This document shows positions 30,490 to 60,842 of a DNA stretch of 64,000 bases, in pieces; the stretch's first letter is position 1; each line of letters opens with the position of its first letter. The notes under the pieces are model-generated. The model had not been told where the DNA came from, did not search any database, and saw only the letters and a list, made by a program, of their open reading frames with translations. This DNA is from an uncultured Paracoccaceae bacterium (GTDB lineage Bacteria > Pseudomonadota > Alphaproteobacteria > Rhodobacterales > Rhodobacteraceae): NCBI GenBank assembly GCA_947487205.1, contig CANKVU010000024.1, positions 1 through 64,000 on the forward strand, in the 5' to 3' direction. The position numbers and the translations under genes were made by a program.

Positions 30490-31809
30490 ATGACCCGGCA
30501 CAAGGCCAACGATTTCTCCAGCTTCTGGATGCCCTTCACGCCCAATCGCGACTTCGCCGCCGATCCGCGCCTGATCGTCGCCGCAGATGGCATGTATTAC
30601 ACCAGCCATGACGGGCGGAAGATCATGGACGCCACCGCCGGGCTCTGGTGCGTCAATGCCGGCCACAACGCCCCGCGCGTGACCGAGGCGGTCAAGCGGC
30701 AGGTCGAGACGCTCGACTTCGCGCCGCATTTCAACTTCGGCACCCCCCAGGCCTTCGACCTCGCGACCCGGCTGGCGGGCCTGTTCCCCGCCGGGCTCGA
30801 CCATGTCTTCTTCACCAATTCCGGCTCGGAATCGGTCGACACGGCGCTCAAGATCGCGCTCCATTACCACCGGATGCGCGGCGACGCGTCCCGCACCCGG
30901 CTGATCGGGCGCGAACGCGGCTACCACGGCACCGGCTTCGGCGGCATCTCGGTCGGCGGGATCGTCAACAACCGCAAGCATTTCGGCGGCATGCTGACCG
31001 GCGTCGACCACCTGCGCCACACCCACGATCCCGAGCGCAACGCCTTCACCCGGGGTTGCCCCGAACACGGCGCCGACCGCGCCGAGGATCTCGAACGGCT
31101 CTGCGCGCTCCACGATCCCTCCACCATTGCCGCGGTGATCGTCGAGCCGATGGCCGGCTCGACCGGGGTGCTGCTGCCGCCCCGGGGCTACCTCGAGCGC
31201 CTGCGCGAGATCTGCGACCGGCACGGCATCCTGCTGATCTTCGACGAGGTCATCACCGCCTTCGGACGGCTCGGCCACGCCTCCGCCGCCGAGCATTTCG
31301 GCGTCACGCCGGACATCATCACCACCGCCAAGGGGCTGACGAACGGGGTCGTGCCGATGGGCGCGGTGATCGTCGACGAGCGGATCTACGCCTCGGCGAT
31401 GGAGCGGGCCGACACGCCGATCGAACTTTTCCACGGCTACACCTATTCGGCCCATCCGCTCGCCGTCGCCGCCGCCACCGCCGCGCTCGACACCTATGCG
31501 AGCGACGACCTCTTCGCGCGCGCCCGCTCCCTCGCCCCGACATGGGAGGCGGCCGTCCATTCGCTGCGCGGCCTGCCCCACGTGATCGACCTGCGCAATC
31601 TGGGCCTCGTCGGCGCGATCGAGCTCGCCCCGCGTCCCGGCGCCCCGGGCAAGCGCGCCTGGGAGGCGATGACCCGCGCCTGGGAGGCCGGCCTCATGCT
31701 GCGCGTGACCGGCGACATCATCGCCCTGTCGCCGCCCTTCATCATCTCCGAGGCGGAGATCGAGACGCTGTTCTCCCGCCTCGCCGACATCCTGCGCACC
31801 ATCGACTGA
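30490..31809 (+). CDS. class III omega-amino acid:pyruvate-type aminotransferase
   Basis: This 439-residue PLP enzyme probably moves an omega-amino group (for example from beta-alanine, a diamine product or taurine-like amine) to pyruvate. Family features are SSFWMPFTPNRDF at the N-terminus, the cofactor-binding NSGSESVDTALK, the RERGYHGTGFGG loop, LLIFDEVITAFGRLG (Asp to the pyridine nitrogen) and the Schiff-base lysine in TTAKGLTNG. ATG 30490 follows a GAGG-containing leader. The divergent XRE-cupin gene suggests induction by an amine or its breakdown product. Confidence 0.88.
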   Translation: MTRHKANDFSSFWMPFTPNRDFAADPRLIVAADGMYYTSHDGRKIMDATAGLWCVNAGHNAPRVTEAVKRQVETLDFAPHFNFGTPQAFDLATRLAGLFPAGLDHVFFTNSGSESVDTALKIALHYHRMRGDASRTRLIGRERGYHGTGFGGISVGGIVNNRKHFGGMLTGVDHLRHTHDPERNAFTRGCPEHGADRAEDLERLCALHDPSTIAAVIVEPMAGSTGVLLPPRGYLERLREICDRHGILLIFDEVITAFGRLGHASAAEHFGVTPDIITTAKGLTNGVVPMGAVIVDERIYASAMERADTPIELFHGYTYSAHPLAVAAATAALDTYASDDLFARARSLAPTWEAAVHSLRGLPHVIDLRNLGLVGAIELAPRPGAPGKRAWEAMTRAWEAGLMLRVTGDIIALSPPFIISEAEIETLFSRLADILRTID

Positions 31810-49982: not shown

Positions 49983-50453
49983 ATGGGCCGCCTCGCCACG
50001 GCCCTCGACGCCGCGATCCGGGCGGTCCTGCGCCCGGTCGTCTTCGCCGCGATGGCCGCGCTCGTCGCGGTCATCACGTTGCAGATCGTGACGCGCGTCT
50101 TCTTCACCGCCACTGGCTGGACCGAGGAGGTGGCGCGCTTCCTGCTGGTCTGGCTCACCTTCCTCGGCGCCACCCTGGCGCTGGCCGAGGGGCGCCACAT
50201 CGCCGTCACTGTCCTGGTGGACCGCCTGCCCGCCCCGCCCCGCCGCGCGCTCGTCGTCGCCGGCCACCTGGCCGCGGCCGCGTTCCTGGCCGCGCTGGCC
50301 TGGATCGCCTGGCGCTACACGAGCATGCAGGGCACGCAGGTCTCGGCCGCCCTGCGGGTGCCGATGATCTGGGTCTATGCCGTCATCCCCGCGACCTGCG
50401 CCCTCATGGCGGTGTCGAGCCTGTTGTCCGCGCTCGCGCCGGGATCGCGATGA
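49983..50453 (+). CDS. TRAP transporter small membrane subunit (DctQ family)
   Basis: This 156-residue protein has four membrane helices and the DctQ signature TEEVARFLLVWLTFLGATLALAEG around residues 42-62 (here split by no gap). It starts one base after the binding-protein stop, and its stop overlaps the large subunit ATG (ATGA). Confidence 0.9.
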   Translation: MGRLATALDAAIRAVLRPVVFAAMAALVAVITLQIVTRVFFTATGWTEEVARFLLVWLTFLGATLALAEGRHIAVTVLVDRLPAPPRRALVVAGHLAAAAFLAALAWIAWRYTSMQGTQVSAALRVPMIWVYAVIPATCALMAVSSLLSALAPGSR

Positions 50454-51724
50454 CCCTCGTCCTCTTCGGCATCTTCGGGATCCTGCTCGCGATCGGCGTG
50501 CCCGTCGCCATCGCCATCGGTGCGGGCACCCTCGTCGCGATCTGGACCGGCGGCACCCCCCTTCTGGTGGTGCCCCAGCAGATGTTCGCCGGCATCGACA
50601 GCTTCGCGCTCGTCGCCGTGCCGATGTTCATCCTGGCCGGCGACATCATGGCCGCGGGACGGATCAGCGAACGTCTCGTGGCGCTGGCCGACACGCTGGT
50701 GGGCGCGCTCCGGGGCGGCCTGTCGGTGGTCTCGATCCTGGCGGCGATGTTCTTCGCGGCGATCTCGGGCTCGGGGGCGGCCACCACCGCCGCGGTCAGC
50801 GCCAGCCTCGTGCCGCAGCTCCGCGCCAAGGGCTACGCGCCCGCCTCCGCGGCGAGCCTCATCGCCGCCGGCGGCACGATCGGCGTCGTCATCCCGCCCT
50901 CGGTGCCGATGATCCTCTATGCCGTCATCGCGCGCGAATCGGTGTCGGAGCTGTTCCTCGCCGGCATCCTGCCCGGCCTCGCCATGGGCGGCGGCCTGAT
51001 CGCGGTGGCGCTCTGGCAGGGTTACGCGCGCGCCTATCCCCGCGGCGAGCCGTTCTCGCCCCGCACCGTCGCGCGAAGCTTCGTCTCGGCCTTCTGGGGG
51101 CTGATGACGCCGGTCATCATCCTCGGCGGCATCTTCTCGGGCATCTTCACCCCGAGCGAGGCCGCGGTGGTCGCCGTCGACTACGCCATCCTCGTCTCGC
51201 TCTTCGTCCACCGCGACCTGACCCTGCGCGACATCTACCGGCTGACGATCCGCGCCGGCGTCACGACCGCCGTCGTCATGTTCGTCATCGCCACCTCCGC
51301 GGCGCTGTCCTGGGCCCTCTCGAACGCCCAGGTGCCCCGCGCCATCGCCGAGGGCGTGCTGTCGCTGTCGCAGGACCCGGTCGTCGTCATGGCCCTGATC
51401 CTGCTGGTCATCCTGGCCACCGGCATCGTGATCGAGACCGCCTCGGCGCTCATCATCCTGACCCCGATCCTCTTGCCCCTGGCACTGCAGATCGGGATCG
51501 ACCCGGTCCATTTCGGCATCGTCCTCGTGGTGGGGCTCGCCATCGGCATGGTCACCCCGCCGGTGGCGATCAACCTCTATGTCGCGGCCTCGGTGACCGG
51601 CATCGGGCTGGAGCGGATCGCCCGTGCCGTGGTGCCCTACCTGATCACCCTCGTCGCGGTGCTGCTCGCCATCGCCTACGCACCGCTCCTCGCCGGCGCA
51701 GGGGCGCCCTCAACACTTCCTTAG
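50450..51724 (+). CDS. TRAP transporter large membrane subunit (DctM family)
   Basis: This 424-residue ion-coupled transport subunit has about 12 helices. Family motifs are VAVPMFILAGDIMAAGRIS, FFAAISGSGAATTAAVSA, GGTIGVVIPPSVPMILYAV and a C-terminal GIVLVVGLAIGMVTPPVAIN. Completes the TRAP system. The PilZ gene begins 22 bases later and may be read through. Confidence 0.92.
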   Translation: MTLVLFGIFGILLAIGVPVAIAIGAGTLVAIWTGGTPLLVVPQQMFAGIDSFALVAVPMFILAGDIMAAGRISERLVALADTLVGALRGGLSVVSILAAMFFAAISGSGAATTAAVSASLVPQLRAKGYAPASAASLIAAGGTIGVVIPPSVPMILYAVIARESVSELFLAGILPGLAMGGGLIAVALWQGYARAYPRGEPFSPRTVARSFVSAFWGLMTPVIILGGIFSGIFTPSEAAVVAVDYAILVSLFVHRDLTLRDIYRLTIRAGVTTAVVMFVIATSAALSWALSNAQVPRAIAEGVLSLSQDPVVVMALILLVILATGIVIETASALIILTPILLPLALQIGIDPVHFGIVLVVGLAIGMVTPPVAINLYVAASVTGIGLERIARAVVPYLITLVAVLLAIAYAPLLAGAGAPSTLP

Positions 51725-51746
51725 AGAAGCCCGGCGATGCTGCCCC

Positions 51747-52829
51747 ATGGCAGTTTCAATCCGGGCGACAACCGTGCATCATGCGAGGGCCGGCAAGAAC
51801 GAAACGAGTTTTGCGCGCGGGCGGATCGCGCCGCGCGGCCCTGCCGCCGCCGCCATCCTGCTCGCCCTCGCGCTCTGGACGGCCGCCGCCGCCGCCGAGC
51901 CGGGGCGGTGCCAGGTCCTCGACGACCTCACCCGGACGGCCGGCTCCGTCGCCGACGCGGTCCAGACGCCCTCCGCCGCCACCGACTGGAAGACCGTGAC
52001 GCGCGCCGCGGACGAGCTCGACCGCCTCGGGGCCGAGGCCACGCGCCTCTTCGGCGAAGGCTCGCCCGTGACCCGCGCGCTCCGCAAGATCCGCGCGCAG
52101 ACCCGCGCCGCGCTGCTCCTCACCTCGGCGGGTGCGCTCGACCAGGCCCGCGCCATCCTCGATTCCCCCCAATACGGCGAGATGGTGCGCTATCTCGGCG
52201 GCATCGACGCGTCGCGCAGCTGTGCGGGCGAGGGCGCCGGCGGCGCGCCCGAGCCCGCCCCCCCGCTCACCGACGGCGACCGCACCGGCGACCGCTTCGC
52301 CGAGGCCCCCGGCACCAGGGCCGCGGGCCTGCCCCGCCAGGTCGACGGCGCCGGTACGGACGATACCTCCCGCCCCCTCATCCTCCTCCAGGGGCTCGCC
52401 GTCGCGGCGCTGGGGCTGCTCGGCCTCTATGCCGTGACCGCCCGCTGCCGCGCCGCCGAGCCCGAGGACGGCTCGGACTTCGCCAGCCTGCGCGCCTTCG
52501 AGCGGTTCGACATCGACCTGCCCTGCTTCGTCGATTTCGGCGAGGGCGAGCTTCTGGGGACGCGCTGCCGCGATGTCAGTCAGTCCGGGCTGGCCATCGT
52601 CTCGTCGCAGCGCTACCGCCACGGCCGGGCGGCCATCCTCCACGTGGCGAGCGTCGCGATCCCCTGCTCCGTTGCCTGGAGCGGCCGGCGGACCACCGGC
52701 TTCAAATTCGACGAGACGCTCGAGGAACGGGCCCTGGCCCGGATCCTGAAGGAGAACGAGAGCGCCGAGCCCGTCCGTCCCGCCGCCGAATTGCCGGGCG
52801 ATCCCGACCGGGCCGGCCAGCCCGCCTGA
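51747..52829 (+). CDS. membrane-anchored PilZ-domain protein with periplasmic helical region
   Basis: This 360-residue protein has an apparent N-terminal signal or anchor (about residues 31-50), a helical region (51-160), and a proline-rich linker. A membrane helix lies at 210-231, followed by a C-terminal PilZ domain (about 248-335). Both c-di-GMP motifs are present: RxxxR at Arg249-Arg253 and DxSxxG at Asp276-Gly281 (DVSQSG). The layout suggests that cytoplasmic c-di-GMP is coupled to a periplasmic helical module; the output is unknown. It follows the TRAP operon closely but is probably unrelated to it in function. There is no strong ribosome site, so the start could lie further in. Confidence 0.72.
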   Translation: MAVSIRATTVHHARAGKNETSFARGRIAPRGPAAAAILLALALWTAAAAAEPGRCQVLDDLTRTAGSVADAVQTPSAATDWKTVTRAADELDRLGAEATRLFGEGSPVTRALRKIRAQTRAALLLTSAGALDQARAILDSPQYGEMVRYLGGIDASRSCAGEGAGGAPEPAPPLTDGDRTGDRFAEAPGTRAAGLPRQVDGAGTDDTSRPLILLQGLAVAALGLLGLYAVTARCRAAEPEDGSDFASLRAFERFDIDLPCFVDFGEGELLGTRCRDVSQSGLAIVSSQRYRHGRAAILHVASVAIPCSVAWSGRRTTGFKFDETLEERALARILKENESAEPVRPAAELPGDPDRAGQPA

Positions 52830-53069
52830 CCCGGCCCCCCGATTCGCCCGGGACCGGATTCGCCTGCACCCGCAGGGCGTCATGCGTCCAGAAAATTCGC
52901 GCGGCTCCTCGCCGTCTTTCGGCCGGAAATTGCTGCTCCGCGGCGTGCTGACGTTGCGTCCCGGGCAGCCCCGCACCGTGCAACCGGCCCGCGACCTCCC
53001 TGCAACCCGTTGTTCTCGCCGAGAAGTCCGGAATGCGGCGCGGTTCCTCACCAAAGGTTAAAAATTCCC

Positions 53070-53097
53070 TTTGATTTGACCGTCCATAGGCTAAATA
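53070..53097 (+). promoter_or_regulatory. candidate promoter
   Basis: TTTGAT (53070-53075) and TAAATA (53092-53097) with a 16-base spacer form a plausible -35/-10 pair in an AT-rich patch about 105 bases before the ATG at 53203. A TTGACC at 53076 is closer to consensus but too near the -10. Confidence 0.3.
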
Positions 53098-53136
53098 CTC
53101 GGAGTGTCACGGCACGGTGTCTTTCCGACGTGCACA

Positions 53137-53163
53137 ATCGTGCTTGTGCTCCGGATCGTGCTT
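53137..53163 (+). repeat. 9-base direct repeat in the 5' leader
   Basis: ATCGTGCTT occurs at 53137-53145 and again at 53155-53163, 18 bases apart start to start. This direct repeat, nearly two helical turns apart, could bind a tandem regulator or act in the mRNA leader. Confidence 0.4.
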
Positions 53164-53202
53164 ACGGCTCGAGTACAAGTAACTCTGTTTTGAGGGGATA
53201 AA

Positions 53203-53961
53203 ATGTATACCAAGCTCTTGGGTTCGGCGGCCGCTGCGAGCGTGACCCTGTTCGCGCTGCCCGCTCTCGCCCTGACCACCCTGACCATCGACAATTTCGA
53301 CGGCAACCAGCGTGTGACGGATGTTCCGGGTACCGGGAACGTCAACATGAGCCAGGCGGCCGATGACGGCATCATCGGCGGCTTCCGTGACCTCAGCGTC
53401 ATGAACACCGTCTCCGGCGGCGACTCGACCGACGCGACCGAACTGCGCGTCACCCCGATCGCCGGCGAAGGCGCTCTGACCTTCTCCAACATCCGTGGCG
53501 CTCGCGGCGAAGGCACCATCACCTATGATGGCAACGACGACCCGACCACGCTCGACACGGCGGGCCTCGGCGGCATCAACTTCCTGATCGGCGACAACCC
53601 GCGCTTCTTCTTCGACGTGCCGCCGAACGGGTTCGACAACGACGCCAACGCGTTCTTCTCGGCCGATGTCTACGACACGAGCGGTAACCGGGTCTCGTAC
53701 CGCGAGAACCTGTCGGCCGGGTTCAGCCCCTTCCTGGCGTTCGACCAGCTGACGGGCGATGCCGGGTTCGACTTCGGTAGCGTTGGTGCGCTGCGATTCA
53801 TGATCAGCACCACCGACACCGAGGACAACATCGACGGTCAGATCAACGGCATCGAGATCCAGGCCGACGACGTGGCCCCGATCCCGCTTCCGGCCTCGGG
53901 CGTGCTGCTGCTCGCCGGCCTCGGCGGCTTCGGCGCCCTGCGTCGCTTCCGCAAGGCCTGA
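53203..53961 (+). CDS. exported protein with IPLPA-type PEP-CTERM-like sorting signal
   Basis: This 252-residue protein has a Sec signal (YTKLLGSAAAASVTLFALPA) and a beta-rich, Asp/Asn/Gly-rich middle. A C-terminal sorting tripartite follows: IPLPASG, a hydrophobic helix (VLLLAGLGGFGALRR) and a basic end (RRFRKA). This is the VPLPA variant of PEP-CTERM common in Rhodobacterales, which implies processing by an exosortase encoded elsewhere and surface or matrix location. Codon choice uses more GGT, CGT and GCT than neighbours, which suggests high expression or a different origin. It is monocistronic with its own promoter region and strong terminator. Confidence 0.85.
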   Translation: MYTKLLGSAAAASVTLFALPALALTTLTIDNFDGNQRVTDVPGTGNVNMSQAADDGIIGGFRDLSVMNTVSGGDSTDATELRVTPIAGEGALTFSNIRGARGEGTITYDGNDDPTTLDTAGLGGINFLIGDNPRFFFDVPPNGFDNDANAFFSADVYDTSGNRVSYRENLSAGFSPFLAFDQLTGDAGFDFGSVGALRFMISTTDTEDNIDGQINGIEIQADDVAPIPLPASGVLLLAGLGGFGALRRFRKA

Positions 53962-53970
53962 TCGCCTTCG

Positions 53971-53995
53971 GATCGGCCGGTTTCTCCGGCCGATC
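53971..53995 (+). terminator. first hairpin after the sorting-signal gene
   Basis: 10-bp perfect stem GATCGGCCGG / CCGGCCGATC with a TTTCT loop, eight bases after the stop codon. It has no T-tail and may protect the mRNA 3' end or work with the next hairpin. Confidence 0.5.
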
Positions 53996-54007
53996 CCCGG
54001 ATACGAG

Positions 54008-54041
54008 AAGGGGCCGCGAGCATCCGCTCGCGGCCCCTTTT
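54008..54041. terminator. strong rho-independent terminator
   Basis: 14-bp perfect stem AAGGGGCCGCGAGC / GCTCGCGGCCCCTT with an ATCC loop, followed by TT. The opposite strand also reads into an A/T end, so it can stop both the sorting-signal gene and the convergent aminotransferase fusion gene. Confidence 0.85.
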
Positions 54042-54077
54042 CACGTCTGTTCCGGACGGGCCCGGTGGGCGGGGGGC

Positions 54078-56741
54078 TCAGGCGCCCTCCCGCAGCACAC
54101 CCTTCTCGCCTGCGCGCAGCACCGAGCGATCCCGCGCGACGTGGTCCGCGAATTCCGCGATCTCCGCGTCCGTGATGTCGCGGCCGTACCATTGCGGCGC
54201 CGCCGGATCGAACCCGTGCTCGTCGGCCAGCTTCGAGATATGGTCCGCGTCCTCGACCGGTAGCCGCGATCCGATGCTGAAATCGCGCTCCTCCCGCGCC
54301 AGCGCCAGCAGCATCGTCTCGCCCAGGCATCCCCAGCACAGGTCGGTCGGCAGCGTCTGGAACGCCCCCAGATCGACGCCGAACGGCGGCGCCACCAGCC
54401 CGCCGTCGAAGACGAGCGCCCGGTTCGACGGGATCTCCGCCCGCGCGACGTTCGGCGGCCGCGCGATGTCGCAGACCAGCGTGCCGGGCCGGAGCGCCAG
54501 CGGGTCGATCACCGCCGTCTCCGAGCTCGTGGCGACGAACACGATGTCGGCCTGGGCCAGCGCCGCGTCGATCGGGGTCTTCCAGTTGACCGGCGCCGGG
54601 GACCCGGCGGCCTGCGCCGCGGCGGTGAAGCGCTGCGCCAGGCCCTTCAGCTCGCGGTTCGCGCCGACGCCGACGCGCCGCTTCATCCGCTCCACGGCGG
54701 CGCCCAGTTCGCCTTGCTCCGCGATCGTGTCCGCCGACCGCGACAGCAGCGTGTCATAGACCTCGTCGGCCACCCGCGACAGCAGGCTGGGGCTGAACGG
54801 GTTGGCGGCGTTGCCCACCAGGTTCAGCCGACCCACCCGGCGCCCGAGCATCAGCGCGGCGAGCCGCCCGATCGCGCCAGAGGCGCCGATCACGGCCACG
54901 TTCGCCGTCTCCAGCGGGCGATCGACGCGCGCCGCCATCTGCTCCACCGCCTTGACCGCGGAGACCGTGGTCAGCGTGTTGCCGCTGGTGATCGGCACGC
55001 CGCGCCCGGTGGCCGAATCGCCGCCGCGGGTCACGATCGAGGTGAAGGCGCCCAGCCCCACGCGGGACGCGTCGTTGCGCCCCGCCAGGTCGACGGCATC
55101 CTGGATCATCCCGACGGCGGCGCCGCGCCCGCCGCCCCGCATGTCGCCGGGCAGCATGGGCACCGACATGATCCAGCCCTCGGCATCGGCGCCGGATTTC
55201 GACGTGACCTTCGGCATGCGATGGGCAAAGCCCGGGCCGAACCGCTTGATCCATTCGCGCAGGTTGGCGAATTCCGCGTCGGTGAACTGCCTAAACGACG
55301 GGTCGGAGCGATAGATGTCCTCTTCCTCGGTATAGTGGATGAGGAAGCCGAACCGCCCCGGCTCGGCCGCGACGGGGGCCGGCGCGGCCGCCTCGGGGGC
55401 CGGGCGCAGGTCGTCCTCGTCCTCGGGGAGCGGCTTGGCGACCAGGTGGCGCACCATCGCGTAATAGTCGCGCCGGTCGATGATGTCGCAGACCGCGTCG
55501 AGCGCCGCCAGCGCCCGGTCGATCTCCTCCCGCCCGGCGATCAGGGTCGGCTGCAGGCGCAGCACGTGCGTCTCGTTGAAGAGCGGCGCGGTCAGGACGC
55601 CCTGCACGTTCATCAGGTAGGAGCTGACGAGCGGCGTCACGCCGCCGTTCAGGCTCGAAAAGGCCATGACGGCCGAATCGCGCCGCCCGTCGAAGGGCAG
55701 GAATTCCAGCCCCACCATGTAGCCGCGGCCGCGCACCTCGCGGATCACCTCGGGATAGCGCTGCCGCAGTGCCTCCAGCCCGGCCATCAGGTAGGCGCCG
55801 TTCTCGGCCACCTGGCGCACCAGCGCCTGGTCGTCGTCGAGCAGCATGTCGAGCGTCGCCAGCGCCACCCGGCAGGCCAGGTTGTTGTTCGCGAAGGTGG
55901 AGGAATGCAGCCGGCCGAACCGGTCGTCCCAGGCCGAGGGGCGCGCGATGCAGGCCCCGATCGGCACCATCCCGCCGCCGAGCGCCTTCGACAGCAGCAG
56001 CATGTCGGGCACCTCGGCCCCGTCGGAACAGGCGAACAGCTTGCCGGTCCGGCCCAGCCCGGTCTGGATCTCGTCGAGGATCGTCAACACGCCGTGCTCG
56101 CGGCACAGCGCGATCACCGCGTCGATATAGCCTTCGGGCGGTGTCACGACGCCGCCCTCGCCCTGGATCGGCTCGACGATGAACGCCGCGATGCGGCCGG
56201 TATCGGCCTCCAGCCGGTCGCGCAGCGCCTCCAGGTCGCCGTAGGGCACGTGGTCGAAGCCGGGCGCGGGCGCGGCGAAGCCTTCCTGGTAAAGCGGCTT
56301 GCCCGTCGCCGACAGGGCGCCCAGCGTCTTGCCGTGGAACCCGTTCCGGGTCGCCAGGATACCGCTCCGGCCGGTGCGCATGCGCGCCAGCTTGATCGCC
56401 GCCTCGACCGTCTCGGCGCCGCTATTGGCGAAGGTGGTGATCCCCAGATCGCCGGGCGTGACCTCCGCCAGCCGCGCGGCCAGGCGTTCGGCCTCGACTG
56501 GGCGCAGCGGCTGCACGAGCGAGGGCAGCTGCTCGGCCTGAGCCGCATTCAGCGCCGCCCAGATCTGCGGCGGATTGTGCCCGAAGGGCAGCGCGCCGTA
56601 CTGGGCGAGGAAATCGAGATATTCGCGTCCCTCCTCGTCGAAGAGACGGAACCCGGAGGCGCGAACCATCTTCGCCTCGAGCGCGAAGGTCCGCAACAGA
56701 TCTGCACGAGCTGGATTTAGAGCCGCCATGATATGTCCCAT
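54078..56741 (-). CDS. class III aminotransferase fused to an acyl-ACP-reductase-like (AAR) domain
   Basis: An 887-residue two-domain protein. Residues about 1-430 are a PLP class III aminotransferase: ANSGAETVEAAIKLAR, the Asp in ILDEIQTGLGRTG (223) and Schiff-base Lys252 (LLLSKALGGG). After an acidic Ala/Pro linker (438-462), residues 463-860 resemble cyanobacterial long-chain acyl-ACP reductase. The start is FGFLIHYTEEED, then LGAFTSIV, SGNTLTT, a Rossmann motif VIGASGAIG (617-625), FDGGLVAPPFGVDL, and Cys805 in GCLGETML. The last aligns with the cyanobacterial catalytic Cys in ACFAEAML. A thioester-to-aldehyde reduction followed by amination is the natural inference. ATG 56741 or 56729 could be the start; neither has a strong ribosome site. 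Monocistronic. Confidence 0.82.
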   Translation of the reverse strand: MGHIMAALNPARADLLRTFALEAKMVRASGFRLFDEEGREYLDFLAQYGALPFGHNPPQIWAALNAAQAEQLPSLVQPLRPVEAERLAARLAEVTPGDLGITTFANSGAETVEAAIKLARMRTGRSGILATRNGFHGKTLGALSATGKPLYQEGFAAPAPGFDHVPYGDLEALRDRLEADTGRIAAFIVEPIQGEGGVVTPPEGYIDAVIALCREHGVLTILDEIQTGLGRTGKLFACSDGAEVPDMLLLSKALGGGMVPIGACIARPSAWDDRFGRLHSSTFANNNLACRVALATLDMLLDDDQALVRQVAENGAYLMAGLEALRQRYPEVIREVRGRGYMVGLEFLPFDGRRDSAVMAFSSLNGGVTPLVSSYLMNVQGVLTAPLFNETHVLRLQPTLIAGREEIDRALAALDAVCDIIDRRDYYAMVRHLVAKPLPEDEDDLRPAPEAAAPAPVAAEPGRFGFLIHYTEEEDIYRSDPSFRQFTDAEFANLREWIKRFGPGFAHRMPKVTSKSGADAEGWIMSVPMLPGDMRGGGRGAAVGMIQDAVDLAGRNDASRVGLGAFTSIVTRGGDSATGRGVPITSGNTLTTVSAVKAVEQMAARVDRPLETANVAVIGASGAIGRLAALMLGRRVGRLNLVGNAANPFSPSLLSRVADEVYDTLLSRSADTIAEQGELGAAVERMKRRVGVGANRELKGLAQRFTAAAQAAGSPAPVNWKTPIDAALAQADIVFVATSSETAVIDPLALRPGTLVCDIARPPNVARAEIPSNRALVFDGGLVAPPFGVDLGAFQTLPTDLCWGCLGETMLLALAREERDFSIGSRLPVEDADHISKLADEHGFDPAAPQWYGRDITDAEIAEFADHVARDRSVLRAGEKGVLREGA

Positions 56742-57342
56742 GATGCGAGGAAAGTCCCTGCTTTCGGATGGTCGAGACCGGTGTTTCCCCGAGGTAAGCG
56801 GCTTTTATTAAAATTTTCTTCGCGCGCTTGCCCAGGATTCGACACCGACGATCCCGCTACCCCCGCCCGCGCGGGAACTGCTCTCCCGCGCCTGACGTTA
56901 TCGCCTGGACCGCTCGGGACTGTCTGTCCCCCAGCGCGCGATGGCGCAACGACCGGGCGCGATTTGCCCCGATCTCGGCGAAGCTTCGCGTGGTGACACC
57001 GGGTTGCAGCAAGAATCTGCCGGAACGTCAGCTTCGCTGCTGCGACTTTTGACCCCCCGGCGCCAATGTGCTGGCGAGTGTCGCCCCCGACCTGCGCGCA
57101 TGAGGCGAGGGTCGCGCGCCCGCGCCGACTCGGCCCGGACCAGGGGCGTCGTGATCCATCAGCGCCCGCGCCCTCTTGGCGGGGATGCGCGCCCACCGCC
57201 ACCGATTCGTCCGGCGGCGGGGTTCGCGGCGCCGCGGCACCACCCCGATGCCACCCCGATCTTGACAACATCGTCCCGGCCCGCTCCAGACGGGGGGCGG
57301 TCTCCGCGATCCACGCCAGCCCAGACGGATTTTTTTACCCGC
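56742..57342. other. 600-base divergent intergenic region
   Basis: No gene recognised. It separates the minus-strand fusion gene from the plus-strand antiporter. An AT-rich run at 56803-56823 (AAGCGGCTTTTATTAAAATT) is a likely promoter core for the fusion gene, and a run of seven T lies at 57330-57336 just before the antiporter start. The long plus-strand frame through here is arginine/proline-rich and non-coding in character. Confidence 0.5.
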
Positions 57343-59844
57343 GTGAGCATCGTCTTCATCACCACCGTCGTCGCGGCGCTGTTTCTCGCCATCGGCGTGG
57401 CCGAGCCGGCGGCGGCACGCCTGCGCCTGCCCTACAGCGTGATGCTGGCGCTCCTGGGCACGCTGATCGGCATCGGCGCCGGCTTCTTTCTCGCCACCGA
57501 ACTGACCGACGCGCTCAACCCGGTGGCCGAGGCGATCCTGGGCCTGCCGATCCGGTCCAACGTCTTCCTCTACGTGTTCCTGCCGACGCTCCTGTTCCAG
57601 GCGGCGCTGGGGGTGAACATCCGGCGGATGCTCGACGATTGGGTGCCGATCCTGGTCCTGGCGGTGATCGCGGTCCTGTTCTCGACCTTCGCCGTGGGCG
57701 CGGCGCTCGAATGGGCGAGCGGCCTGCCGCTCGCCGCCTGCCTGCTGGTGGGGGCCATCGTCTCCACCACCGACCCCTCCGCCGTGGTCGGGATCTTCCG
57801 GTCGATCTCGGCGCCGCGCCGGCTGGTCCGGATCATCGAGGGCGAGAGCCTGCTGAACGACGCCGCCGCCATCGCCCTCTTCGGCCTCTTCATCGGCTTC
57901 GTCAGCCGGGGCGTGCCCGACCCGGGGCTCGGCGACGCGATCGGCCGCTTCCCGGTCCTGGTCGCGGGCGGGATTCTCACCGGCTGGATCTCGGGCCGTG
58001 TCGCGGTCGGGCTGATGATGGTCAGCCGCCGGTTCGAACTGGCGACGATCACCATCTCGGTGTCGCTGCCCTACCTCGCCTATATCGGCGCCGAACAGAT
58101 CGTCGGCGCCTCGGGCGTCATCGCCGTCGTGGCGGCGGGGGTGACGCTGAACCTCGCCGGGCCGGGGCGGCTGACGCCGTCGGTCTGGAACAACCTGCGC
58201 GATGTCTGGACGCTCCTGGCGCATTGGGCGGGGGCGCTCCTGTTCATCATCGCCGCGCTGCTCATCCCCCGCCTCCTGCAGGAGCTTCGCCTGACCGACC
58301 TCGCCCTGATCGGCGTCGTCACCACCGCCGCGCTGGCGGCGCGCGCGGTGATCCTCTACGGCCTGCTGCCGCTCCTGGCCCGCGCGCGGCTCTCGCCGGT
58401 GGTCGAACGGCCCTACCGCACCGCCATCCTCTGGGGCGGGCTGCGCGGCGCGGTGACGCTCGCCCTGGCGCTCGCGGTGACCGAAAGCCGCCTCGTCCCG
58501 ATGGAGGTCAAGCGCCTCGTCGGCATCCTGGCCACCGGCTTCACCCTCTTCACGCTGATCGTCCAGGGCACGACGCTGCGCTGGGTGATCGAGCGGCTCG
58601 GCCTGGCCGAGCTCTCGCCGCTCGACGCCGCGCTCTCCAAGCAGGTCATCGCGATCTCGCTCCAGACCGTCCGCGAGGAGGTGGCCGAGGCGACCGAAAC
58701 CTACGATCTCGGCCACGAGGTCGTCCGCTCCGAGGCCAAGCAGTTCGGCGAACGGCTGGAATCGGCGGTGAAGGCGGCCGAGGATGCCTCCGAGATCCTG
58801 GAGCGCGACCGCGTGACGCTCGGCCTCCTGGCGCTCGCGGGGGCCGAGCGCGAGCTGATCCTGGAGCGCATCCGCGACCGCCTGATCTCGTCGCGCCGCT
58901 CCGAGCAGGCGCTGGCCGACGCCGACCGCATGATCGAGGCGACGCGCACGCATGGGCGGCACGGCTATCGCCGCGCGGCGCGCGCCAGCACCGCCTATTC
59001 CCGCGGCTTCTTCGCCGCGGTCTTTCTGCACCGGCGGCTGCGGATCTCGTCCCCGCTCGCCCACCGCACCGCCAACCGGTTCGAGCGGCTGCTGCTGCAG
59101 CGGCTGATCCTGCAGGACCTCGAAGGGTTCACCGGCAGCCGCATCCGCCGCATCCACGGACGCCGCGTGGCCGAGATCCTGACCGAACTGCTCGAACGCC
59201 GCAAGGAGGCGGTCGATTCGGCCATGGAGGGGCTGCGCCTGCAATATCCGGGCTATGCCGAGAAGCTCGAGCGACGCTTCATCCGCCGCACCGCGCTGCG
59301 CCTCGAGGAGCGCGAATACGAGGCCATGCGCGAGGACGGGCTGATCGGCGCCGAACTGCACCAGTCGCTCCTGCGCGACCTCGCCCGCCGCCGCGCCGAG
59401 GCCGAGAAGCGCCCGCCCCTCGACATGGCCGTCCAGCGCTCCGAGGTCGTGCGGCAATTCCCCCTTTTCAAGGACATGGACCCGAAGGCGCTGCGGCGCC
59501 TCGAACGCGCGCTCGTCACCCGCTACGCCAATGCCGGCGAGGTCATCGTGCCGCGCGACGGGCGAACGGGCGGCGTCTACTTCATCGCCTCCGGCGCGGT
59601 GGAGCTGCGGGCCGCCGGCCAGACCTGGCGCCTCGGCCGGGGCGAGATGTTCGGCCACCTGGCGCTGCTCCTGCGGACCGCGCGGCGCACCGAGGTGACC
59701 GCCATCGCCCCCTCGACCTTCCTGCTTCTCGACGAGCGGGTCTATCTGCGCCTGGTGGCCGAGCATCCCTCGATCCAGAACGCGGCGCGCGACAGCGCGC
59801 TCCGGCGCGGCATCGCCCCCGAACGGCTCGACCTGAAGGCCTGA
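57343..59844 (+). CDS. CPA1-type Na+/H+ antiporter with cyclic-nucleotide-binding domain
   Basis: This 833-residue protein has an N-terminal NhaP/CPA1 antiporter (about 1-415, 12-13 helices) with STTDPSAVVG and GESLLNDAAAIALFG. The middle is a long charged helical cytoplasmic region (420-700), and a C-terminal cNMP-binding domain follows (about 710-815, FPLFKDMDPKALRRLERAL, then GVYFIASGAVELR). The architecture recalls SOS1-like sodium exporters. Whether it binds cyclic nucleotide is unknown; the classic phosphate-cassette arginine is not obvious (RGEMFGHLALLL). GTG 57343 is chosen because the first membrane helix starts immediately; no ribosome site is seen, so the start is tentative. Confidence 0.85.
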   Translation: MSIVFITTVVAALFLAIGVAEPAAARLRLPYSVMLALLGTLIGIGAGFFLATELTDALNPVAEAILGLPIRSNVFLYVFLPTLLFQAALGVNIRRMLDDWVPILVLAVIAVLFSTFAVGAALEWASGLPLAACLLVGAIVSTTDPSAVVGIFRSISAPRRLVRIIEGESLLNDAAAIALFGLFIGFVSRGVPDPGLGDAIGRFPVLVAGGILTGWISGRVAVGLMMVSRRFELATITISVSLPYLAYIGAEQIVGASGVIAVVAAGVTLNLAGPGRLTPSVWNNLRDVWTLLAHWAGALLFIIAALLIPRLLQELRLTDLALIGVVTTAALAARAVILYGLLPLLARARLSPVVERPYRTAILWGGLRGAVTLALALAVTESRLVPMEVKRLVGILATGFTLFTLIVQGTTLRWVIERLGLAELSPLDAALSKQVIAISLQTVREEVAEATETYDLGHEVVRSEAKQFGERLESAVKAAEDASEILERDRVTLGLLALAGAERELILERIRDRLISSRRSEQALADADRMIEATRTHGRHGYRRAARASTAYSRGFFAAVFLHRRLRISSPLAHRTANRFERLLLQRLILQDLEGFTGSRIRRIHGRRVAEILTELLERRKEAVDSAMEGLRLQYPGYAEKLERRFIRRTALRLEEREYEAMREDGLIGAELHQSLLRDLARRRAEAEKRPPLDMAVQRSEVVRQFPLFKDMDPKALRRLERALVTRYANAGEVIVPRDGRTGGVYFIASGAVELRAAGQTWRLGRGEMFGHLALLLRTARRTEVTAIAPSTFLLLDERVYLRLVAEHPSIQNAARDSALRRGIAPERLDLKA

Positions 59845-59930
59845 ACGGCCGCTCTCCACACGCGATGCGCGCAGAAGGGTTGCATTTCGCGTGCCGCTCC
59901 GCATCCTCGGGCGGGGGACAGGATCAAGCG

Positions 59931-60842
59931 ATGACACGCGACAAGCTCGGCATGGCGCTGGAGGCAATTCGCAGCGCGGCACTCGATCCACGCGCCTGGC
60001 CGCGCGTGCAATCCACTACCGAAGTGCTGTTCGACGCGACCGGTTCCCAGCTCGCCGTCGTGGACCACGAGGACGGCAACCGCTTCACCAGCCGCACCTC
60101 GGTCATTCCCGAGATCGACCGGGACATGGCCAGGATGGCTCCCACCTCGGAACCGGTCCAATGGTCGGCCGAGCGTCCGCATTGGCGCCGCTTCGTGGAT
60201 TACGACTATATCGACGAGGCCGGCATGCGCAGAAGCGCGTTCTACGCCAACAATGCCCGCTACGACGTGACCTACCGAATGGGCCTGCGCCTGATCGACC
60301 AGCCGCGCAAGTCCACCGCCATCGTGTGGTTCTGGCCGCGCAGCGCCGGCCATGTCCAGGCGCTCCAGATCCGCCTGCTGGAGGCGATCCGCCAGCCGCT
60401 CATGGTCGCCGCGGGCATCGCCGAGATGGCCGCCAGCGACGTCTCCCGCCACGGCGACATACTCGAGGGTCTCTCCGCGCCCGCCCTGCTGGCGCTGCCG
60501 GACGGAACCTTCCTCGCCGCCAACGGCCCGGGAAACGCCGCGCTCGTGGCGCGCGACGGGATCGAGCTGGAGGATGGCCGCGTGGTGGCCTGCTGGCGGC
60601 GGGGGCGTGCGGCCCTCGCGCGGATCCTGGCCGATGCGCCGCGGGACCCCGATCCGAGCCAGCCGCGGCCCGCCCATGCGATCCTGCCCCGTCCCGGCAT
60701 GCACAGGCCGGCCGTCTTCGCCGCGATGCCGCTCGCCCGGCGGCACCATTTCGTGCACGGCACCGACACGATCGTTCTCCTGGTGATGACGAACGCCGCG
60801 ACCACGGCGCAAGCGCTGCCCGTGGGCGTGCAGATCCCCTGA
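59931..60842 (+). CDS. LuxR-type regulator sensor region without HTH
   Basis: A 303-residue cytoplasmic protein. The N-terminal half (RDKLGMALEAIRSAALDPRA, then QLAVVDHEDG, RRSAFYANNARYDVTYRMGL) resembles sensor regions of Rhodobacterales LuxR-family regulators. The second half has a PAS-like segment (LLALPDGTFLAANGPGNAAL). In those relatives a LuxR HTH follows; here the frame stops at VGVQIP and only 27 bases remain before the convergent gene, so no HTH is encoded. It may be a truncated regulator or a partner protein that modulates a full-length one. I could not find the HTH in another frame nearby. Confidence 0.6.
   Translation: MTRDKLGMALEAIRSAALDPRAWPRVQSTTEVLFDATGSQLAVVDHEDGNRFTSRTSVIPEIDRDMARMAPTSEPVQWSAERPHWRRFVDYDYIDEAGMRRSAFYANNARYDVTYRMGLRLIDQPRKSTAIVWFWPRSAGHVQALQIRLLEAIRQPLMVAAGIAEMAASDVSRHGDILEGLSAPALLALPDGTFLAANGPGNAALVARDGIELEDGRVVACWRRGRAALARILADAPRDPDPSQPRPAHAILPRPGMHRPAVFAAMPLARRHHFVHGTDTIVLLVMTNAATTAQALPVGVQIP

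Follow-up and report, generated by a model that had tools for sequence, protein, structure and literature searches.

The formation of a long-chain amine from a carrier-bound fatty acid by a single two-domain enzyme is known from bacterial pigment pathways. For example, PtTamH of the tambjamine YP1 pathway in Pseudoalteromonas tunicata has an aminotransferase (AT) domain followed by a thioester reductase (TR) domain, and with the ligase-ACP protein PtTamA, NADH, and L-Glu, it converts a C12 acid to the C12 amine. The aldehyde was detected when L-Glu was left out, and the amine was not formed when C12-CoA was supplied (PMC9594044). PigE, which belongs to the prodigiosin pathway, has its domains in the reverse order, and its authors offer evidence of thioester reduction (PMC8341465).

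The locus considered here lies in a window of 64,000 nucleotides, the whole stretch of DNA that was analysed, from an uncultured Paracoccaceae bacterium. An open reading frame on the reverse strand (54078..56741) is intact, has no internal stop, and codes for a protein of 887 amino acids followed by a stop codon; its extent was set from the reading frame and from 26 aligned relatives. The protein, called AT-TR below, begins with a class III AT domain (residues 24-416; 55494..56672, reverse strand) that matches Pfam PF00202 (Aminotran_3) with 299 bits. An Ala/Pro-rich linker joins this domain to an acyl-ACP-reductase-like TR domain (about residues 460-860; 54162..55364, reverse strand), which was recognised by NCBIfam and by profile searches of solved structures. 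The relatives begin with MxxLNPxR, which makes Met5 (56729), rather than Met1, a possible true start.

Both domains keep the residues expected of them across the 26 aligned relatives, three of which (L015, L021, and L030) are shortened by contig ends. In the AT domain, Asp223 and Lys252 (codon 55986..55988, reverse strand) are conserved in 90% or more of the rows; Lys252 is the expected PLP lysine of the family. In the TR domain, Cys805 (codon 54327..54329, reverse strand) is invariant, as are Gly619, Gly622, and Gly625 of the GxxGxxG nucleotide-binding motif (GASGAIG, residues 619-625; 54867..54887, reverse strand). Cys805, the residue expected to carry the acyl group, falls on the cysteine of the cyanobacterial acyl-ACP reductase (AAR) in the printed alignments, with GCLGETM over ACFAEAM. 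When a TR profile built from the 26 relatives was compared with solved structures, PigE was the top match (160.8 bits) and cyanobacterial AAR the second (99.7-105.2 bits), followed by an NRPS-type "amino acid adenylation domain protein" at about 36 bits and GluTR at 28 bits. Searched alone against NCBIfam, the TR domain gave 172.2 bits to PigE, 69.8 to AAR (TIGR04058), and 21.6 to GluTR, all under the equivalog cut-offs of the respective families.

These results bear on a preliminary description of the same DNA, which had proposed an intact single-chain fusion of an aminotransferase with an acyl-ACP-reductase-like enzyme and had singled out Lys252, Asp223, and Cys805, the last as the equivalent of the AAR cysteine. 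The reading frame, Pfam, the profile searches, and the alignments bear out each of these points. The comparison of the TR domain with AAR and GluTR places the acyl reductases first and GluTR lower, a non-reductase family is not favoured, and a loss of Cys805 or of the nucleotide motif was looked for among the 26 relatives, all of which keep both. The same description had suggested a conversion of acyl thioester to aldehyde to amine, a prediction that is well supported by homology to PtTamH, for which coupled enzymes demonstrated it, and to PigE. It had also held that this job has no described precedent in bacteria, and this has to be withdrawn since those two enzymes carry out such chemistry (PMC9594044; PMC8341465).

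AT-TR is TamH-like, as judged by its architecture and its predicted reaction, and it likely turns a carrier-bound fatty acyl group into a long-chain amine, with a Cys thioester and an aldehyde as intermediates. By analogy with the homologues for which assays have been published, the TR domain would transfer the acyl group of a carrier-bound thioester, probably acyl-ACP, to Cys805 and would reduce it with NAD(P)H to the aldehyde. The AT domain would then convert the aldehyde to a primary amine, with glutamate as the probable donor. A relative of 955 amino acids from Paraburkholderia phymatum (L054) has a phosphopantetheine-binding domain in front of the AT and TR domains and is encoded next to an AMP-binding ligase, both of which fit an acyl-ACP substrate. 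Neither a ligase gene nor an ACP gene was recognised next to AT-TR at the Rhodobacteraceae loci that were read, and the acyl groups there would presumably be drawn from the general acyl-ACP pool of fatty acid synthesis.

One could consider AT-TR to be an ortholog of PigE or TamH that serves prodiginine or tambjamine synthesis from within a pigment cluster. PigE (NF053554) is in fact the best NCBIfam match of the whole protein, with 555.7 bits, but this is under the cut-off of 850, and the AT residues match positions 386-728 of the profile while the TR residues match positions 216-361, so the domain order is reversed relative to PigE. In a TR tree with long branches that took in no TamH sequence, the 26 Rhodobacteraceae rows cluster together (98/97, stem 3.07), separate from L050, L054, and L070 and from three rows of the PigE type. 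Neither pigment genes nor a pigment cluster with a ligase-ACP partner were recognised in the Rhodobacteraceae neighbourhoods read. A role in pigment synthesis was rejected as highly improbable, given the score under the PigE cut-off, the separate TR clade, and the lack of recognisable pigment genes next to AT-TR. The AT tree is poorly resolved, has long branches, and is the basis for no claim here.

The gene on the other side of the AT-TR stop codon is convergent with it (53203..53961, forward strand) and codes for an exported VPLPA-CTERM protein of 252 amino acids, referred to as the partner. Its sorting tail (53881..53955, forward strand) matches TIGR03370, which scores 39.4 bits against a cut-off of 25.35. 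The mature part of the partner has no match in Pfam, and none with a useful E-value among solved structures. Gene calls in this and the other neighbourhoods were made within the analysis, except in annotated records. The preliminary description mentions neither this neighbour nor the tie to the exosortase XrtD set out below.

The 116 bases that separate the two genes contain a strong hairpin between the two stop codons (54010..54037, strand not assigned), which is probably a terminator; it was read by eye, and an automatic scan listed none there. AT-TR had been credited with a terminator of its own, and the hairpin agrees with this in part, but the run of T that was seen by eye at 54038-54041 is on the partner's side and favours the convergent gene. 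The upstream region, earlier put at 600 bases, comes to about 590 bases if the true start of the divergent antiporter gene is the one taken from its reading frame. No Rfam family was found in 50000-60000. A search for sigma-54-type sites gave nothing firm upstream of AT-TR (mean 5.57 vs 4.96 in shuffles, sd 0.44) or upstream of the partner (mean 6.37 vs 4.96 in shuffles, sd 0.61).

The pairing of the two genes is not peculiar to the window. Among 26 loci (the window, L009-L030, L048, L049, and L053), 20 have a VPLPA-tailed reading frame within about 1.3 kb of AT-TR; in L009, L015, L019, L024, L029, and L030, none lies that close in the stretch examined. Nineteen of these 20 proteins were aligned, L018 being cut short and left out, and they form one family with 36-76% identity to the window protein. 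VPLPA-CTERM is matched 27 times in the window genome at E <=0.1, with 19 of these above the cut-off, so with about 4,000 genes assumed, the chance that one would adjoin AT-TR is estimated at about one in a hundred. No VPLPA tail was found in the stretch scanned near other related fusions, namely the PigE-type L051, L052, and L055, the Leisingera protein L050, and the P. phymatum protein L054, a scan that left out L070 and L071.

Some of the loci in which the two genes lie apart deserve a comment. The separations in L009, L015, and L019 are possibly contig breaks, and in L030 the partner and the start of AT-TR sit together at a contig end. In the genome of Shimia aestuarii (L024), the two genes are clearly unlinked, on different large contigs, where the partner has a rhomboid gene as its neighbour and AT-TR has XrtD.

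The association was also surveyed across genomes, most of them drafts. An order draw covered 292 Rhodobacterales genomes with a completeness of 90% or more. The TR domain was found in seven of them (E <=1e-10), of which four (G000, G137, G195, and G196) belong to the AT-TR subfamily with at least 54% identity and three are distant (29-31% identity). The mature domain of the partner was found in five of the 292 (E <=1e-8), these being the same four AT-TR genomes and G207, and thus in one of the 288 sampled genomes without AT-TR. Fisher's test gives p 1.7e-8, or 9.8e-7 without the window genome, with kinship ignored. A family draw of 394 genomes has subfamily AT-TR in four, with one further distant match, and the partner (E <=1e-3) in eight, including all four with AT-TR. 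The two draws overlap, with G000 and G195 among the genomes they share, and are therefore not independent. It counts against a strict pairing that the partner occurs without AT-TR in G207, G319, G340, and G362. The single-protein searches scored only the best few candidates per genome, so a weak TR could be missed. All 22 genomes of the relatives L009-L030 have the partner, with E values no worse than 4.2e-12, and 14 of them had contributed no row to the profile. The genomes G137, G196, and G437 are those of L030, L024, and L029, as equal coordinates show.

Homologues of the partner were also seen at loci without AT-TR. Those in L057 and L065 have an acyl-ligase-like gene on one side and ABC-transporter-like genes on the other, as read by eye from translations, and in L066 and L067, the surroundings have no pattern.

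In a phylum draw of 279 genomes, the TR profile (E <=1e-12) matched only four besides the window genome, each weakly, with at most about 100 bits. Plasmids gave 16 records that match TR (E <=1e-5), and each of these matches over the AT domain as well. Cultured strains with AT-TR include Loktanella atrilutea DSM 29326 and Shimia aestuarii DSM 15283.

Genes that move together can co-occur without sharing a job, and this counts against the reading of the pair as a functional module. AT-TR and the partner could simply travel together in surface or exopolysaccharide islands, with the amine going into another lipid or a polysaccharide and having no direct tie to the partner. Several of the loci do lie within exopolysaccharide or exosortase clusters, and the frequent changes on the XrtD tree described below would suit such travel. 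This explanation is nevertheless judged unlikely, for every AT-TR genome in both draws has the partner, and L024, the only clear unlinked case, is not explained by co-transfer of neighbours.

The sorting tail of the partner brings in the exosortase XrtD. The window genome carries an XrtD (694 bits), whose locus also contains TPR, export-like, and rhomboid genes. Scores above the XrtD cut-off were obtained in 82 of the 292 genomes of the order draw and in 20 of the 22 genomes of AT-TR relatives (p 5.4e-9, with at least two genomes in both sets and kinship ignored). The two AT-TR genomes with no XrtD match, both drafts, gave no EpsH-type exosortase either. Each of the four AT-TR genomes in the order draw also carries XrtD (p 0.006). 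Of the 82 XrtD genomes there, 78 are without AT-TR, so XrtD can generally do without it. The idea that AT-TR is a core part of every XrtD system was rejected, as only 4 of the 82 XrtD genomes have it. Genera can be mixed in this respect: in g1, the window genome has AT-TR and XrtD and two other genomes have neither; in g2, G196 has both and G001 neither; and in g3, G137 has both, G116 only XrtD, and G002 neither.

The history of XrtD can be followed in a quick tree, with SH-aLRT support only, of 81 sequences. It holds 22 from AT-TR genomes and 59 from as many of the 78 XrtD genomes without AT-TR, leaving out the other 19, an additional G130 copy, and the G303 sequence, which is split in two. 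The presence of AT-TR changes 11 times on this tree, at least 8 of them on well-supported branches, vs a mean of 19.4 in shuffles, and such repeated changes indicate that the module was gained or lost repeatedly on XrtD backgrounds. One clade of eight sequences (SH-aLRT 100) comes wholly from AT-TR genomes. At 8 of the 26 loci (L019, L022, L023, L024, L025, L027, L029, and L049), the distance between XrtD and AT-TR is no more than about 13 kb. A divergent rhomboid gene adjoins the partner in L020, L022, L023, L025, L027, L059, and L062; the one in L022 matches Pfam Rhomboid and scores 33.3 bits to rhombosortase, under the cut-off of 84.

A direct use of the amine in sorting can be imagined from these ties. 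The amine that AT-TR would make from acyl-ACP could be the nucleophile that resolves the acyl-enzyme of XrtD, so that the partner would end in a fatty amide as its lipid anchor; XrtD, or else the adjoining rhomboid protease, would do the coupling at the partner's C terminus. The VPLPA tail, XrtD in the window genome and in 20 of the 22 relatives' genomes, the clade of eight, and the short distances in eight loci speak for such a mechanism. There are parallels as well: an amine lipid has been proposed as the archaeosortase acceptor, in what is there called a speculative model (PMC7157517), and an ethanolamine-containing moiety was found on a rhombosortase substrate (PMC6219818). Against it stand the 78 XrtD genomes that do without AT-TR, because of which an amine anchor could at most be special to one protein, and the fact that a single family is tied to AT-TR despite the many VPLPA-CTERM matches in the window genome. 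Whether XrtD or the rhomboid protease is given the task, the proposal is rather improbable.

That one VPLPA-CTERM family, not all of them, goes with AT-TR is accounted for if the amine or its product leaves the cell and is bound, carried, or displayed at the surface by the partner, with XrtD doing no more than sorting the partner. No exporter was recognised in the neighbourhoods, and with a mature partner that resembles no Pfam family or useful structure, binding is a guess; this reading is held to be rather unlikely.

The best reading of the evidence is a mobile accessory module in which a long-chain amine derived from acyl-ACP serves the partner at the cell surface. AT-TR and its dedicated family of exported VPLPA-CTERM proteins would make up the module, mostly in cells with XrtD, and the amine, or a lipid made from it, would most likely be used with or on the partner; the association of the genes is the one thing that points to this destination. 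What the computations establish is the fused gene with its domains and conserved residues, its co-occurrence with a dedicated partner family, and the statistical tie to XrtD. On balance, we hold it to be more probable than not that a TamH-like AT-TR forms part of such a module and that its amine is used at the surface with the partner.

The pair is of interest for the exosortases at large. To our knowledge, the group that Gram-negative exosortases add to their substrates has yet to be established. One paper mentions only "some new moiety" (PMC11980579), and AT-TR with its partner offers a concrete candidate molecule. If a fatty amide is indeed formed, it would be a new bacterial lipid anchor and would identify the acceptor for a Gram-negative exosortase. 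More broadly, the pairing suggests that the way in which some bacteria coat their surface may include a lipid step that had not been suspected.

How does this locus compare with the known systems? It shares with the XrtD/VPLPA-CTERM system (TIGR04152, TIGR03370) the tail of the partner and the XrtD found in the window genome and in the great majority of its relatives. Among the matches listed in open-licence PubMed Central, with subscription papers mostly outside, none has an amine-forming enzyme as part of this system; the coverage is partial, so this is weak evidence of absence for a link between such an enzyme and an exosortase. A 2011 article by Craig in the Journal of Bacteriology, going by its title, reportedly links an exosortase system with a type of enzyme concerned with acyl chains and amines. 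That enzyme is of another family, and its product, again by the title, is the amide of an amino acid and not an amine.

As for the enzyme, the TR domain aligns with AAR (TIGR04058; 6jzq) across both halves, with its Cys at the equivalent place, but its AAR score lies far below the cut-off of 449.7 and it is fused to a transaminase. Both domains are homologous to those of PigE (4ppm), from which AT-TR differs in domain order, in its score under the family cut-off, and in having no recognised prodigiosin genes alongside. PtTamH has the same N-terminal class III transaminase and C-terminal AAR-like TR domain with GxxGxxG and a catalytic Cys (PMC9594044), and the expected conversion of acyl-ACP to aldehyde to amine is the same, a likeness of architecture rather than of directly compared sequences. 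However, TamH sits in a pigment cluster with TamA, while AT-TR sits beside a VPLPA-CTERM gene with no ligase-ACP gene recognised. What is new is the gene setting, whereas the chemistry expected of the enzyme was already described in the pigment pathways of PtTamH and PigE; AT-TR takes this type of enzyme beyond those pathways and, if the favoured reading is right, into the cell envelope.

A rhomboid protease is a possible second processing enzyme of the clusters built around XrtD, the exosortase of the VPLPA-CTERM system. In the window genome, a rhomboid protease gene follows XrtD (L058:12616-13338), and at other loci such a gene is divergent from the gene for the exported VPLPA-CTERM partner (L022:4860-6301, L059:8182-9928, and L062:10138-11759), an arrangement also found in L020, L023, L025, and L027. 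In L062, the gene for the fused class III aminotransferase (AT) and thioester reductase (TR) is divided between both ends of its contig (C13 of genome G137; 92,933 bases), so this contig may be a circular plasmid bearing XrtD, rhomboid, partner, and AT-TR. The AT-TR of L020, a record labelled as a Verrucomicrobia MAG, clusters with Rhodobacteraceae in the TR tree with at least 90% support, which points to either misbinning of the contig or recent transfer.

In the window, an open reading frame of 360 amino acids, PilZ-domain-like as judged by eye, lies two genes away from AT-TR (51747-52829, + strand), and it is not conserved as a neighbor across the AT-TR neighborhoods compared. A second class III aminotransferase gene of the window (30547-31641, + strand) has 36% identity to the AT domain, a match without the TR domain. 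A TR-like domain (31% identity) occurs in G290 (C54:108842-109447) within an open frame of 3,237 amino acids, which may encode a multidomain synthase whose release domain is AAR-like. Partner homologues also occur without AT-TR, within L057:5486-9313 and L065:5649-9532, both with an AMP-ligase-like gene on one side and ABC-transporter-like genes on the other.

The extended fusions on Leisingera plasmids (L050:9959-14146 and L071:5986-10173) carry about 540 extra residues joined to AT-TR; their surroundings, with pabB, an outer-membrane lipoprotein-sorting protein, an MMPL transporter, and an adenylating enzyme, are a further context type. On a Paraburkholderia phymatum plasmid (L054:9722-14397), a relative of 955 amino acids has a phosphopantetheine domain N-terminal to AT-TR in the same polypeptide. 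Beside its gene lie two others, one of the AMP-binding (fatty-acyl ligase-like) kind and one P450-like. This group looks like a self-contained cluster for converting a fatty acid to an amine.
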